DNA of 64,000 nt, from assembly GCF_041242975.1 (NCBI RefSeq), contig NZ_CP162488.1, positions 4,950,001 to 5,014,000 on the forward strand, given 5' to 3'. Below, one piece after another: positions 33,686 through 54,650 of this stretch (positions are counted from its first letter, which is position 1; every line of letters starts with the position of its first letter). A program made the translations under genes and the position numbers. Source of the DNA: Xanthomonas sp. DAR 35659. GTDB lineage: Bacteria > Pseudomonadota > Gammaproteobacteria > Xanthomonadales > Xanthomonadaceae. Under the pieces are notes generated by a model that saw only the letters and a program-made list of their open reading frames with translations, was not told the DNA's origin and made no database searches.

Positions 33686-35005
33686 ATGCACTACAGCAGC
33701 GACACCGCGGCAGCGGCGCGCGGCGGCCTGGCGCGCACCGCCATCGCGCCGCTGGTCCTGATCGTCAGCCTGTTCTTTCTCTGGGGCATGGCGAACAACC
33801 TCAACGACATCCTGATCAAGCAATTCAAGAAGGCGTTCGAACTGACCGACCTGCAGGCCGGGCTGGTGCAGAGCGCGTTCTATCTAGGCTACTTCGTGTT
33901 CGCGATCCCGGCGGCGATGTTCATGCGCCGCTTCAGCTACAAGGCCGCGGTGGTGCTGGGGCTAGGGCTGTACGCGGCCGGCGCGTTCCTGTTCTATCCG
34001 GCCGCGCAGGAGCACACCTATGGACTGTTCCTGCTGGCGCTGTTCGTGATCGCCAGCGGCCTGGCCTTCCTGGAAACCACGGCCAACCCGTTGGTCACCG
34101 TGCTCGGACCGACCGAAGGCGCGGCGCGACGGTTGAACCTGGCGCAGGCGTTCAACCCGCTCGGCTCGATCACCGGCGTGCTGATCGGCCAGCACTTCAT
34201 CCTGTCCGGCGTGGAGCACACGCCGCAGGAGCTCGCGGCGATGACGCCGGCCGCGCGCGCCGGCTTCTTCGCCGCCGAATCGGCGGCGGTGCAGACGCCC
34301 TACCTGGTCATCGGCGCGGTGGTGGTGCTGTGGGCGCTGCTGATCGCCATGACCCGTTTCCCGGCGACGCGCGACACGGGCGACGCCGCCGGCAAGGGCG
34401 GCGGCAAGGCAGACTTCGGTGCGTTGCTGCGCAACCGCCGGTTCGTGTTCGCGGTGGTGGCGCAGTTCTTCTACGTCGGCGCGCAGGTCGGCATCTGGAG
34501 CTACCTGATCCGCTACCTGCAGGACGCGGTGCCCGGCACCCCGGAAAAGACCGCGGCCAGCTTCCTCACCGTCTCGCTGGTGCTGTTCATGGCCGGCCGC
34601 TTCATCGGCACCGCCTTGCTGCGCTTCGTATCGCCGGCGGTGCTGCTGGGTGCGTTCGCCCTGCTCAACCTGCTGCTGTGCGGCGTGGCGATCGCGTTGC
34701 CGGGCTGGACCGGCCTGTACGCGCTGGTGGCCAGCAGCGCGTTCATGTCGGTGATGTTCCCGACCATCTTCGCGCTGGGCCTCGAGGGCTTGAACGACGA
34801 TGCGCGCAAGCTCGGCTCGTCGTTGATCGTGATGGCGATCATCGGCGGCGCGGCGCTGACCGCGTTGATGGGCGCGGTGTCCGACCACGCCGGCATCCAT
34901 TGGGCGATGGCCGTGCCGACGCTGTGCTTCGCGGTGATCCTGGCGTTCGCCGCCTACGCGCGCGACCTCGCGGCCGCGGCGCCCGCCCCTGCCACCGGAG
35001 CCTGA
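33686..35005 (+). CDS. fucP: L-fucose:H+ symporter, MFS
   Basis: 439 residues, twelve predicted helices. The FucP signature is clear: LFFLWGMANNLNDILIKQFK near residue 32, then LVQSAFYLGYFVFAIPAAMF, then LETTANPLVTVLGP and LNLAQAFNPLGSITGVLIGQ. It imports L-fucose with protons. The start ATG 33686 is preceded by GGGAGGGG (33671-33678). The mutarotase gene follows after 1 bp, so the two are co-expressed. Confidence 0.92.
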   Translation: MHYSSDTAAAARGGLARTAIAPLVLIVSLFFLWGMANNLNDILIKQFKKAFELTDLQAGLVQSAFYLGYFVFAIPAAMFMRRFSYKAAVVLGLGLYAAGAFLFYPAAQEHTYGLFLLALFVIASGLAFLETTANPLVTVLGPTEGAARRLNLAQAFNPLGSITGVLIGQHFILSGVEHTPQELAAMTPAARAGFFAAESAAVQTPYLVIGAVVVLWALLIAMTRFPATRDTGDAAGKGGGKADFGALLRNRRFVFAVVAQFFYVGAQVGIWSYLIRYLQDAVPGTPEKTAASFLTVSLVLFMAGRFIGTALLRFVSPAVLLGAFALLNLLLCGVAIALPGWTGLYALVASSAFMSVMFPTIFALGLEGLNDDARKLGSSLIVMAIIGGAALTALMGAVSDHAGIHWAMAVPTLCFAVILAFAAYARDLAAAAPAPATGA

Positions 35006-51986: not shown

Positions 51987-52087
51987 CTAGGGCGTGTCCC
52001 CACTGCCCGAGCATGCCGCGCGCAACCGCGGCCCTTCGGGTTGGGCCTGGCAACGCGGCATACCCGGGGAGTGGGAACACGCCCTAG
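51987..52087. mobile_element. MITE-like palindromic element
   Basis: A 101-bp segment with 18-bp terminal inverted repeats: CTAGGGCGTGTCCCCACT at 51987-52004 and AGTGGGAACACGCCCTAG at 52070-52087 (17 of 18 match). The inside has further complementary parts (ATGCCGCG / CGCGGCAT). It has no coding capacity and sits between glpR and the DUF1456 gene. The ends and size fit a miniature inverted-repeat element or a large REP-like unit. Confidence 0.6.
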
Positions 52088-52131: not shown

Positions 52132-52605
52132 ATGATCAACAACGACGTATTGCGCTCCATTCGCTACATGCTCGACCTCAGCGACCAAATGATCGTCGAT
52201 CTGGCGCAGCTCGCCGATCCCGCCTTCCCGCTCGACAAATCGCAGGTGCCGGCCTATCTGAAGAAGGAGGACGAGGATGGCTTCGTCGAATGCAGCGACC
52301 AGGTGCTGGCGCACGTCCTCGACGGGCTGGTGTTCCACTTCCGCGGCCGCGACGACAGCCTGCCGGCGCGCCCGGTGGAGACGCGCGTGACCAACAACGT
52401 GGTGCTCAAGAAGCTGCGCGTGGCGTTCCAGCTCAAGGACGTGGACATGCACCAGATCTTCGCCGACGCCGGCTTCCCGGTCTCCAAGCCGGAACTGTCG
52501 GCGCTGTTCCGGCAGCCGGAGCACAAGAACTTCCGCCCGTGCGGCGATCAGTTGCTGCGCAATTTCCTCAAGGGCCTGACCTTGCGCGTGCGCGCGGCGG
52601 GTTGA
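52132..52605 (+). CDS. DUF1456 (YehS-like) protein
   Basis: 157 residues from ATG 52132 (MINNDVLRSIRYMLDLSDQM). It has two copies of an about 70-residue unit: VLRSIRYMLDLSDQMIVDLA and VLKKLRVAFQLKDVDMHQIF, each followed by a conserved YLKKED / LFRQPEHKNF segment. Typical of YehS/DUF1456 proteins; function unknown. Starts 45 bp after the MITE-like element. Confidence 0.9.
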   Translation: MINNDVLRSIRYMLDLSDQMIVDLAQLADPAFPLDKSQVPAYLKKEDEDGFVECSDQVLAHVLDGLVFHFRGRDDSLPARPVETRVTNNVVLKKLRVAFQLKDVDMHQIFADAGFPVSKPELSALFRQPEHKNFRPCGDQLLRNFLKGLTLRVRAAG

Positions 52606-52632
52606 GGCGCGGCACGCCTGGGTTTGCCTTCT

Positions 52633-52655
52633 GTAGGAGGGGCTTCAGCCCCGAC
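52633..52655. repeat. REP unit, GGGGCTTCAGCCCC variant
   Basis: A variant REP with a GGGGCTTCAGCCCC palindrome core (consensus GCGGCTTCAGCCGC): both arms changed together, so the hairpin is kept. Confidence 0.8.
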
Positions 52656-52789
52656 AGGACCGATGCCGATGCGCTCGCCGCACGCGGCATCGCGGTTGAG
52701 ATCGGTACTCGGTACCGCCGTCGCTGACGGCATGCCGCTGTGTCGCTGCCTGGACACCGTTCAACGCCGTCGGGTTCGGCGCTTCGCTC

Positions 52790-52810
52790 GTCGCGGCTGA
52801 AGCCGCTCCT
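52790..52810. repeat. REP unit interrupted by the IS110 element
   Basis: GTCGCGGCTGAAGCCGCTCC plus T, the left 21 bp of a REP, stops exactly at the element start. Its last two bases (AC) and the usual following AG resume at 54040. Joined, they give an intact REP, so the element inserted into a REP after its CT core. Confidence 0.88.
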
Positions 52811-52818
52811 TGTATCTG

Positions 52819-53010
52819 GACATGAGGCCCACGTGGCCTTATGTCTTCCGACTGATCATCGGAGCAGTGCGGGAAGCCCAGTCGCTCCTAAAGCCACGAG
52901 CTTGCATTGTAGATTGGCTCCCGCATTGCATATGCTGGCCCATCGGTGTCCGTACGGTATCCAGAGTCCGCCGCAGGCGTGAACTCGCATCCACAAGGCA
53001 GGACCGGGCG
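52819..53010 (+). ncRNA. Bridge RNA of the IS110 element
   Basis: Folded by eye. A 5' hairpin 52819-52845 (GACATGAGGCC / GGCCTTATGTC, one G-U). Target loop: stem GGGAAGCC (52871-52878) with GGCTCCC (52916-52922). Left guide GTCGCTCCT (52881-52889), equal to the REP left target with one G-U. Inner hairpin AAGC/GCTT (52891-52903). Right guide TGTAG (52908-52912), complementary to CTACA across the core. Donor loop: stem CGGTGTCC (52944-52951) with GGACCG (53001-53006). Left donor guide ACGGTATC (52954-52961), identical to the element's right end (54031-54038). Right donor guide ACAAG (52993-52997), complementary to CTTGT at the left end. Exact RNA ends are not known. Confidence 0.8.
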
Positions 53011-53050
53011 CAGCGGTGATCGTGTTCACCCTACGATGGAGGAATTCCCC

Positions 53051-54022
53051 ATGTCCCCAGTCGTCGGTATCGACGTCGCCAAACACCGTTTCGACCTGGC
53101 CATCGACCTGGCCAACGGCAAGTACCGCACCAAGGCCAAGCTTTCCAACGATCCGAAGGGGTTCCAGGCCCTACGGACGTGGCTGCAGAGCCATGCGCAG
53201 GCGGACAGCTGGATCGTGATGGAAGCCACCGGCACCTACCACGAGGCCCTGGCTGAGTTCGTGCACGCCTTGGGCTACCGCGTATGCGTCCTCAACCCGG
53301 CGCAGACGGCGCTGTATGCGCGCAGCCAGCTGACCCGGGTCAAGACCGACCGGAGCGATGCCAAGCTGATCGCCAGCTACGGCCTGCGCCATGCGTCGCA
53401 ATTGCGGCCGTGGCAGTCCGATCCGCCGGCGCTCAAGCACCTCAAGGCGCTGGTGCGTCGGCGCGAGGACCTGCTGCAGATGCTGCAGATGGAGCGCAAC
53501 CGCCTGGACGTCGCCGCGCCGGTGGTGCGCGACTCGCTGCTGGAGATCATCGGCCAGTTGCAAGCGAACATCGCCCAGATCGAACGGGCCATCGACGACC
53601 AGATCGACAAGGATCCTACCCTGCGCGGGCAGCGCGAGCTGCTGGTCAGCATCGACGGCATCGCCGAGAGGAGCGCGGCGCTGTTGCTGGCCGAGCTCGG
53701 CGACGTGGAGCGCTTCTCCCAGGCCTCGGCGGTGACCGCCTTCGCCGGGTTGAATCCACGGCTGCAGGAGTCCGGCAAGCGCAAGGGGCAGGTCTGCATC
53801 TCCCGTACCGGCTCCCCACGCCTGCGCGCCGGCCTGTTCCTGCCGGCCTTGGTCGCCATGACCCACAACCCGGTCGTGCGTGCGCTGAAACAACGCCTGC
53901 GCGAACGCGGCAAGGCCAACAAGCAGATCATCTGCGCCGCCATGCGCAAGCTGCTGCATATCGCCTACGGCGTGCTCAAATCGCGCACGCCCTTCGACCC
54001 TCAAAAGGCCCTTGCCTGTTAG
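53051..54022 (+). CDS. IS110-family serine-RuvC recombinase
   Basis: 323 residues from ATG 53051 with GGAGGAA at 53038-53044. DEDD RuvC-like domain: VVGIDVAKHRFDLAI (Asp), VMEATGTYHEAL (Glu), RVKTDRSDAKLIASYG (Asp, Asp). A coiled-coil middle part follows (LQMLQMERNRLDVAAPVVRD). C-terminal Tnp domain: LVSIDGIAERSAALLLAELG, ASAVTAFAGLNPRLQESGKR and CISRTGSPRLRAGLFLPALV, with the presumed catalytic Ser in SRTGSPRLR. The frame is intact, so the element could be active. Confidence 0.95.
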   Translation: MSPVVGIDVAKHRFDLAIDLANGKYRTKAKLSNDPKGFQALRTWLQSHAQADSWIVMEATGTYHEALAEFVHALGYRVCVLNPAQTALYARSQLTRVKTDRSDAKLIASYGLRHASQLRPWQSDPPALKHLKALVRRREDLLQMLQMERNRLDVAAPVVRDSLLEIIGQLQANIAQIERAIDDQIDKDPTLRGQRELLVSIDGIAERSAALLLAELGDVERFSQASAVTAFAGLNPRLQESGKRKGQVCISRTGSPRLRAGLFLPALVAMTHNPVVRALKQRLRERGKANKQIICAAMRKLLHIAYGVLKSRTPFDPQKALAC

Positions 54023-54143
54023 GGGGGAAGACGGTATCTACAGGGAAGCGACAGCGCGCCGTGAGGCCGGATGGCGGTCGCTGCCGCCACAGCACCGTTG
54101 GCGTCCGACGCTGCCTACAGCAGCGACGCCGGATGCGAGCCGC

Positions 54144-54650
54144 TCAGCGGATCCGGTACACCCGCGCCTTCGGCAGGTCTTCGTCCACCTGCAGGAACCA
54201 GCGTCCGGCGATGCCGGGCACGACCTTGGTCGCCGGCGACGCCAGTGCGGTGCGCAGGGTCATGCTGCCCTTGAGCACCTTCCATTGCTGGCCGTTGTCC
54301 AGCACGAACACGGTGCCCGGCGCCCAGCCGGCGACCTCGCCCTGGACGCGGGCACTGATCGGGCCGTCGTCCAAGCCGATCAGCATGCCCTGCTCGGCCT
54401 GGGCGTCGCTGGCCGACACCGCCGTCGACGCAGGCGCGGGCGCAGCCTTGGGACGTGGCGGCGCCTGGGCCGCGTCGCGCGCGTCGGCGTCGCGCAGCAG
54501 GCGGTTGAGCGTGGCCAGTTGCGCCGGGGTCAAGCCGACCTCGCGCAGTTGCTCGGCGCTGAGCCGGCGCTCGATCTCCACATATCCCGACTGCGCCAGC
54601 GCTGCCGGAGCCGCCAGGGCGCATGCCAGCGCCAGCACTACGTATTTCAT
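54144..54650 (-). CDS. Exported hypothetical protein
   Basis: 168 residues with a signal peptide (MKYVVLALACALAAPAALA, cleavage before QSGYVE). Residues 24-50 hold IERRLSAEQLREVGLTPAQL, a helix pair; a Pro/Ala linker (60-80) leads to a small beta domain: MLIGLDDGPISARVQGEVAG, TVFVLDNGQQWKVLKGSMTL, WFLQVDEDLPKARVYRIR. The last part resembles uncharacterised Xanthomonas exported proteins, but I cannot name a family. Confidence 0.7.
   Translation of the reverse strand: MKYVVLALACALAAPAALAQSGYVEIERRLSAEQLREVGLTPAQLATLNRLLRDADARDAAQAPPRPKAAPAPASTAVSASDAQAEQGMLIGLDDGPISARVQGEVAGWAPGTVFVLDNGQQWKVLKGSMTLRTALASPATKVVPGIAGRWFLQVDEDLPKARVYRIR

Follow-up and report, generated by a model that had tools for sequence, protein, structure and literature searches.

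An IS621-like IS110-group element of Xanthomonas sp. DAR 35659, its predicted bridge RNA and the REP that it interrupts

Introduction

IS110 elements inserted in REPs have been described (PMC1525189), as have bridge or seeker RNAs (PMC11208160, PMC11187229), and REP heads have been defined as GTAG or GTGG (PMC3686654, PMC2817692). The closest described system is IS621 of E. coli (PDB 8wt6), an IS110-group element with a CT core, a two-loop bridge RNA in its left end, a DEDD motif with S241 in its recombinase, and REPs as its target. An IS621 copy lies between a REP ending ATCAGGC-CT and the bases ACG, its ends being TGTAT and CAGTATCT, and its left end contains CGTAG, which fits that ACG. Within the same family, ISPpu9 and ISPpu10 of P. 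putida are each reported with all 7 of their copies at the same point in a REP (PMC1525189, in the part cited), and we liken them to the present element by description only. ISPa11 of P. aeruginosa also targets REPs, and an RNA has been found with its transposase, although it belongs to the IS1111 group and, according to the part of PMC11187229 cited here, its RNA is encoded downstream of the gene rather than upstream as in the element described below.

The DNA considered here is a window of 64,000 nucleotides from Xanthomonas sp. DAR 35659 (“the window” means this whole stretch), of which positions 52811-54039 are an IS621-like IS110-group element of an already known kind. Because both REP-inserted IS110 elements and bridge RNAs have been published, the element is a further case of that kind; our interest is in how its guides, and those of its relatives, compare with the repeats of their hosts.

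Results

The element and the REP that it occupies

The features of the IS110 family, a DEDD RuvC-like domain and a Tnp (Transposase_20) domain, are both present in the recombinase, which matches Pfam families PF01548 with 112.2 bits and PF02371 (Transposase_20) with 73.7 bits. When it is aligned with that of IS621, its residues D8, E58, D100, D103 and S241 fall on D11, E60, D102, D105 and S241, the residues given a catalytic role in the part of PMC11208158 that we cite. The two differ nonetheless, with 41.9% amino acid identity over 310 positions and a different REP stem at the target, and a DNA search of E. coli genomes with the element gave no match. Among solved structures, the best match is the ISCro4 transposase (PDB 9t56; E 3.9e-64, query residues 5-318), a likeness by protein alone. 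Membership of the IS1111 group was considered and rejected, given a right end of 17 bases, as against 240 at the left, and a predicted RNA upstream of the gene. The coordinates of all features are collected in Table 1.

Table 1. Features of the element and of the interrupted REP, in window coordinates
Feature	Position	Strand	Basis
IS110-group insertion sequence, 1,229 bp	52811-54039	+	Five full genome copies, sharp ends
Left part of interrupted REP, palindrome through CT core	52790-52810	+	Sequence; REP family with 422 exact members
CT core, target side	52809-52810	+	Sequence
Left end, 240 bp, encoding predicted bridge RNA	52811-53050	+	Alignment of 22 left ends
5′ stem-loop of predicted bridge RNA	52818-52846	+	RNA fold of 52817-53010, z -2.74
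Predicted bridge RNA body (short hairpin, then the stem-loops that bind target and donor)	52846-53021	+	Covariance model from other genera
Left target guide GTCGCTCCT	52881-52889	+	Sequence, shuffles, own-flank pairing
Inner AAGC/GCTT hairpin of target loop	52891-52903	+	Compensatory changes in 2 of 4 pairs
Right target guide TGTAG, complementary to CTACA of the top strand	52908-52912	+	Sequence, shuffles
Left donor guide ACGGTATC, identical to element right end 54031-54038	52954-52961	+	Identical in all 22 aligned left ends
Right donor guide ACAAG, complementary to CT-TGT at the circle junction	52993-52997	+	Sequence
IS110 recombinase, 323 aa, RuvC-like DEDD and Tnp domains; D8, E58, D100, D103, S241	53051-54022	+	PF01548, PF02371; PDB matches ISCro4 and IS621; IS621 alignment
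Candidate -35 TTGCCT of a promoter forming only in the circle	54012-54017	+	-10 TATCTT = 54035-54039 joined to 52811, spacer 17 bp
CT core, element's right end	54038-54039	+	Sequence
Right target ACA, rest of REP head; other strand reads TGTAG	54040-54042	+	Sequence; 6 of 6 genome right junctions are ACA

A first-pass annotation of this DNA, made from its letters, had the element splitting a REP exactly, with the right part resuming at 54040, and these coordinates hold: the element lies between the T of the CT core and the ACA of the REP (GCCGCTC-CT^ACA), and the flanks, when joined, read as one REP with a single CT core. The repeat has the marks of a REP, namely a GTAG/GTGG head, a palindrome and high copy number (GTAGGAGCGGCTTCAGCCGC type), its pattern GCGGCTNNAGCCGCTCCTACA occurring exactly 422 times in the genome as against 0 for a reversed-pattern control. 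The annotation had also spoken of 20-plus REPs in this DNA; at up to three mismatches the window has 20 matches, the interrupted REP included (0 in shuffles), and 13 exact occurrences of GCGGCTNNAGCCGCTCCTAC.

Two other repeats lie close to the element. On the minus strand at 52632-52652, about 140 bp from the interrupted REP, the REP-like sequence GGGGCTGAAGCCCCTCCTACA forms an inverted doublet with it. Positions 51987-52087 are occupied by a repeat of another type, inverted and imperfect (CTAGGGCGTGTCC...GGAACACGCCCTAG), part of which (52017-52052) recurs at several sites in this genome and in congeners.

Structure and guides of the predicted bridge RNA

The left end was aligned with its counterparts in related elements, giving 22 left ends in all. 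Six of these belong to the window's genus and one to a different genus in the same family; Pseudomonas or Stutzerimonas contribute 14 and a Rhodoferax MAG one. A covariance model built from the 15 Pseudomonas/Stutzerimonas and Rhodoferax left ends, all of them outside the window's family, matches the window at 52846-53021 with 130.5 bits (E 1.6e-32) and the IS621 of E. coli more weakly, with 38.5 bits. The one other match in the window, at 33760-33930 on the minus strand (13.9 bits, E 0.033), is in an open reading frame that was read by eye as a transporter, and it was put down to chance. A search of 52500-54300 against Rfam gave no match at E<=1.

The two guide-bearing loops proposed for this end in the first-pass annotation are supported by covariation. 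Specifically, of 613 cells across the 15 left ends, 95.9% have the pairing of the 42-pair structure, as against 26-46% in slid controls, and changes on both sides of a pair are found at 16 pairs and in 46 cells, where shuffled alignments average 8.9 and 14.4 and none of 500 shuffles reached as high. This support falls in the helices that frame the target and donor loops; of the five covariation measures, one points the opposite way, with 26 further pair types where shuffles give 30.6 and all 500 are as high. The 5′ hairpin appears in 21 of the 22 left ends when each is folded singly and judged by eye, the exception being L026. Judging by sequence and covariation, the two loops pair with target and donor across the CT core; when the free RNA is folded, the left target guide is partly paired.

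All four guides, as well as the inner AAGC/GCTT hairpin, lie at the positions first assigned to them, and their occurrence together and in order was matched by 0 of 20,000 dinucleotide shuffles of the 240-bp left end. The 9-nucleotide left target guide, with G-U allowed, arises in 1.7% of 20,000 shuffles, and the left and right target guides at fitting spacing arise in 0.15% of the same number. Taken singly, the shorter guides are not rare in shuffles (43% and 99% for the 5-nucleotide right guides, 6.5% for the 8-nucleotide left donor guide), and for the right donor guide the same loose search on the real sequence picks 52973, not 52993. Of the two core bases, the left donor guide matches the first only.

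The right guide and the REP dialects of the hosts

In its letters the right target guide is a REP head, (T/C)GTAG, which is the reverse complement of CT-AC and the next base; the same is true of IS621, with CGTAG and a right target of ACG. One element, L024, has CATAG. The first base of the guide can be compared with the third base of the target in 84 readable rows, five rows with a cut right target being omitted, and the pairs are U-A in 27, U-G in 1, C-G in 41, C-A in 12 and C-C in 3.

It is informative to set the guides beside the repeats of the genomes that carry them. Genome-wide, ACG makes up 0.4-19% of the targets in the five hosts with a U guide (ACA:ACG of 423:12 in G000, 538:8 in G004, 333:2 in G006, 73:17 in P. 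shirazensis and 461:2 in P. putida W15Oct28) and 44-88% in the 11 hosts with a C guide (150:131 in G003, 118:211 in G018, 78:118 in G010, 10:8 in G012, 63:61 in G036, 28:72 in BN417, 9:66 in S. chloritidismutans, 32:246 in P. daroniae, 6:11 and 7:29 in P. oryzihabitans, and 6:45 in S. xanthomarina). Three C-guide hosts (G003, G012 and G036) have ACG in the minority, and the rows of G036 and P. shirazensis are weak because the reversed control for CCGCTCCTACG is as high as the count (67 to 61 and 20 to 17, respectively). Three genomes stand outside this table of 16 hosts: G108, with mixed guides; G107, whose own target was uncounted; and G005, whose guide is absent from its contigs and which is still counted as a C-guide genome among the 39 insertions considered below.

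For six further hosts, whose own left target is missing from the genome-wide patterns, samples of about 400 kb each were used. Two of these agree with the dialect reading, namely G101 (U guide; ACA 7, ACG 1) and G105 (C guide; ACG 10, ACA 4), and a third, G111 (C guide), agrees on three sites (ACG 3, ACA 0, of 20 occurrences), eight other CTAC 12-mers being commoner there. G114 (C guide; ACA 7, ACG 3) dissents. G100 and G106, both with a C guide, have too few sites (ACG 2 and ACG 1), and with 15 and 104 commoner 12-mers, respectively, the guide matches no leading repeat of the sample.

The full separation of five hosts from 11 would have p 0.0002 if the hosts were independent. On the tree it comes down to two independent contrasts on starred branches, both agreeing; with four more hosts, one of them dissenting, there are two contrasts on starred branches (three on all), of which on average 1.6 agree and 0.4 show no difference. 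Two or three phylogenetically independent contrasts are too few for a test. Within the genus, insertions in U-guide genomes are followed by ACA in 21 of 21 cases, in a REP pool that is already 97-99% ACA, and those in C-guide genomes by ACG in 29 of 39, where 22.1 would be expected from the REP pool (P 0.017), which makes the first base of the right guide a weak determinant.

Read together, these sequences suggest that the first base of the right guide follows the CTACA or CTACG dialect of the host REPs, the guides mostly varying along with the repeats of the host; in the open-licence literature searched, we found no report of right guides following REP dialects. One way to account for this agreement, to which we give nearly an even chance, is shared ancestry or sorting: lineages of the element would have stayed, or persisted, in hosts of one dialect, and the guide would not have adapted. 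The small number of independent contrasts (two on starred branches, three on all) favors this account, as does the finding that the two guide states are sister groups in the window's genus. Against it, the U guide is also found outside the genus, in elements of P. shirazensis/P. putida, P. oryzagri and Rhodoferax, and in P. oryzagri the REP type used by the element shows ACA 7 and ACG 1, in a sample of 400 kb where ACG closes the commonest of the CTAC 12-mers. Our own proposal is tentative, and we hold it to be somewhat short of even: bridge RNAs of the IS621 clade may be two-part REP readers, in which the right guide copies the RAYT-recognised head (T/C)GTAG and the left guide copies the host REP stem, both guides drifting along with the host dialect, the guide thus coevolving with the host repeat, and each insertion splitting the head of the REP concerned.

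The left guide and its flank across related elements

In 86 of 89 rows, each a full copy from this or a related genome, all 9 positions of the left target guide pair with the left flank of the same copy, G-U allowed; the exceptions are L027 (7 of 9), L035 and L164 (8 of 9 each). Among the 89 rows there are nine from BN417 in which the copy lies at a contig edge, so that one insertion may count twice, from both sides, and for four BN417 rows, with a left flank of fewer than 12 bases in the per-copy table, a separately read flank was substituted. That table gives a flank for 85 rows, and in 29 of them guide and flank are identical without any G-U.

All 55 full copies examined in the genus have the left guide GTCGCTCCT, and their left flanks read GCCGCTCCT in 51 cases, GTCGCTCCT in three (one of these being another copy's guide) and GCTGCTCCT in one. 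Since GTCGCTCCT thus stands mostly against GCCGCTCCT, one U-G pair is the rule there, and the genus guide is imperfect against the commonest REP, with U opposite G. As to whether this U serves REPs of the GTCGCTCCT variant, such REPs are present at 7 places in G000, 2 in G004, 4 in G003, 1 in G018, 2 in G010, 0 in G012 and 21 in G006, and they took 2 of the 55 genus insertions in REPs. In the congener G013, where no copy turned up, 104 REPs are of the GTCGCTCCT type; against these the genus left guide would need no wobble pair.

The case in which the flank is a guide is L190 (G018:C1:3587320-3588760). At its bases 1-230, a REP is followed by a partial left end up to CCAGTCGCTCCT and then by a full element, which thus sits where another copy has its left target guide and whose right flank is ACGG, not the remaining left end. 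This looks like an insertion into guide DNA itself, after which the remainder of the earlier copy disappeared.

In other hosts the guides, matched to their flanks, are TTCCACCCT, ATCCACCCT, GTCCACCCT, GCCCACCCT, ACCCATCCT, GACCGCCCT, GCAGCGGCT, TTCGCCCCT or GCCGCTCCT. Guide and target thus covary among natural elements: in the 14 distinct combinations of guide and flank, pairing is found at 92 of 98 non-core positions, where permuted combinations average 61.1 and 0 of 20,000 permutations are as high. This test took 21 of 27 rows (14 distinct), including the misframed L034, which lowers the score. The same variation bears on the possibility that REP specificity comes from the protein or from the palindromic shape of the REP, the guide matches being incidental. 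Transposases of other IS families do likewise target REPs (PMC1525189, in the part cited); a left guide that changes with its left flank (CCACCCT, GCCGCTCCT, GCAGCGGCT and TTCGCCCCT types) and loops that covary as a structure make this explanation very improbable.

Copies in the genome and the orthologous place in congeners

In the genome, a single contig of 5.4 Mb, the element is present as five full copies and one fragment of 280 bases. The claim that the element is programmed for this REP family, which had been coupled with a proposal to look for non-REP sites at other copies, gains support from their flanks: 5 of 5 full copies lie at the same REP position, with the CT core, ACAGG to its right and, to its left, a stem that ends in GCCGCTCCT. 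The truncated sixth copy keeps its CT-ACA right junction and lacks the left end, so that ACA follows the core in 6 of the 6 right junctions found by a pattern that demanded RCV after the core and that other right targets would escape. Three of the five full copies are identical and the other two carry 13 and 14 substitutions, the left end being unchanged.

Empty sites in relatives, another of the early suggestions, do exist as element-free orthologous places. Both flanking genes are present on the stretch in 9 of the 19 congeners from which it was fetched, and in L199 and L200 the interval between the genes was read as containing intact REPs, of this type or one close to it; the intergenic sequence of the congeners has diverged, so the orthologous place is not a base-for-base empty site. 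That the copies spread as REP-plus-element segments through homologous recombination, with shared REP flanks inherited and not chosen, would suit the three identical copies but is the least probable explanation of all, since the flanks of the five copies diverge left of the REP and right of ACAGG and the element is absent at this place from 19 of 19 congener stretches.

Elsewhere in the genus, a Xanthomonas sacchari plasmid carries a relative almost identical in protein to the copies of congeners. In G001, a congener poor in REPs (21 of the exact type), matches to the element are mostly partial, and the longest of them, L119, has an altered left junction, CGTACCTGG instead of TGTATCTGG.

Discussion

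Modelled on the mechanism of IS621 as given in the cited parts of PMC11208160 and PMC11208158, the locus is almost certainly an intact-looking IS621-type element whose left-end bridge RNA pairs with the REP around the CT core and with the circle junction, and whose DEDD/serine recombinase joins the two. Transcription of the RNA, the circle and catalysis are steps that we infer, as is any selective cause of the guide tracking. By analogy with IS621, excision would give a circle in which the joined right and left ends create a promoter for the bridge RNA, and a TTG at the spacing of the candidate -35 (Table 1) is found in 23 of the 24 virtual junctions listed. The target loop, with left guide GUCGCUCCU and right guide UGUAG, would pair with both strands of the REP around the CT core, the donor loop would pair with the circle junction, and the two loops would thereby bring REP and circle together for the recombinase to exchange the strands adjoining CT. 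In such a scheme, the left guide would read the host-specific REP stem and the right guide the REP head, which is GTAG on the REP strand and CTAC on the target strand. Insertion parts that head, GT from AG on the REP strand, and should therefore spoil it for RAYT.

Nature has supplied pairs of bridge RNAs within one genus that have the same left guide and either UGUAG or CGUAG as the right guide, and whose usual targets differ at one base; with such pairs, the drift of guides and the drift of host repeats can be studied together. Furthermore, the other strand of CT-AC is the GTAG head of REPs, which suggests a possible reason why the clade keeps CT-AC.
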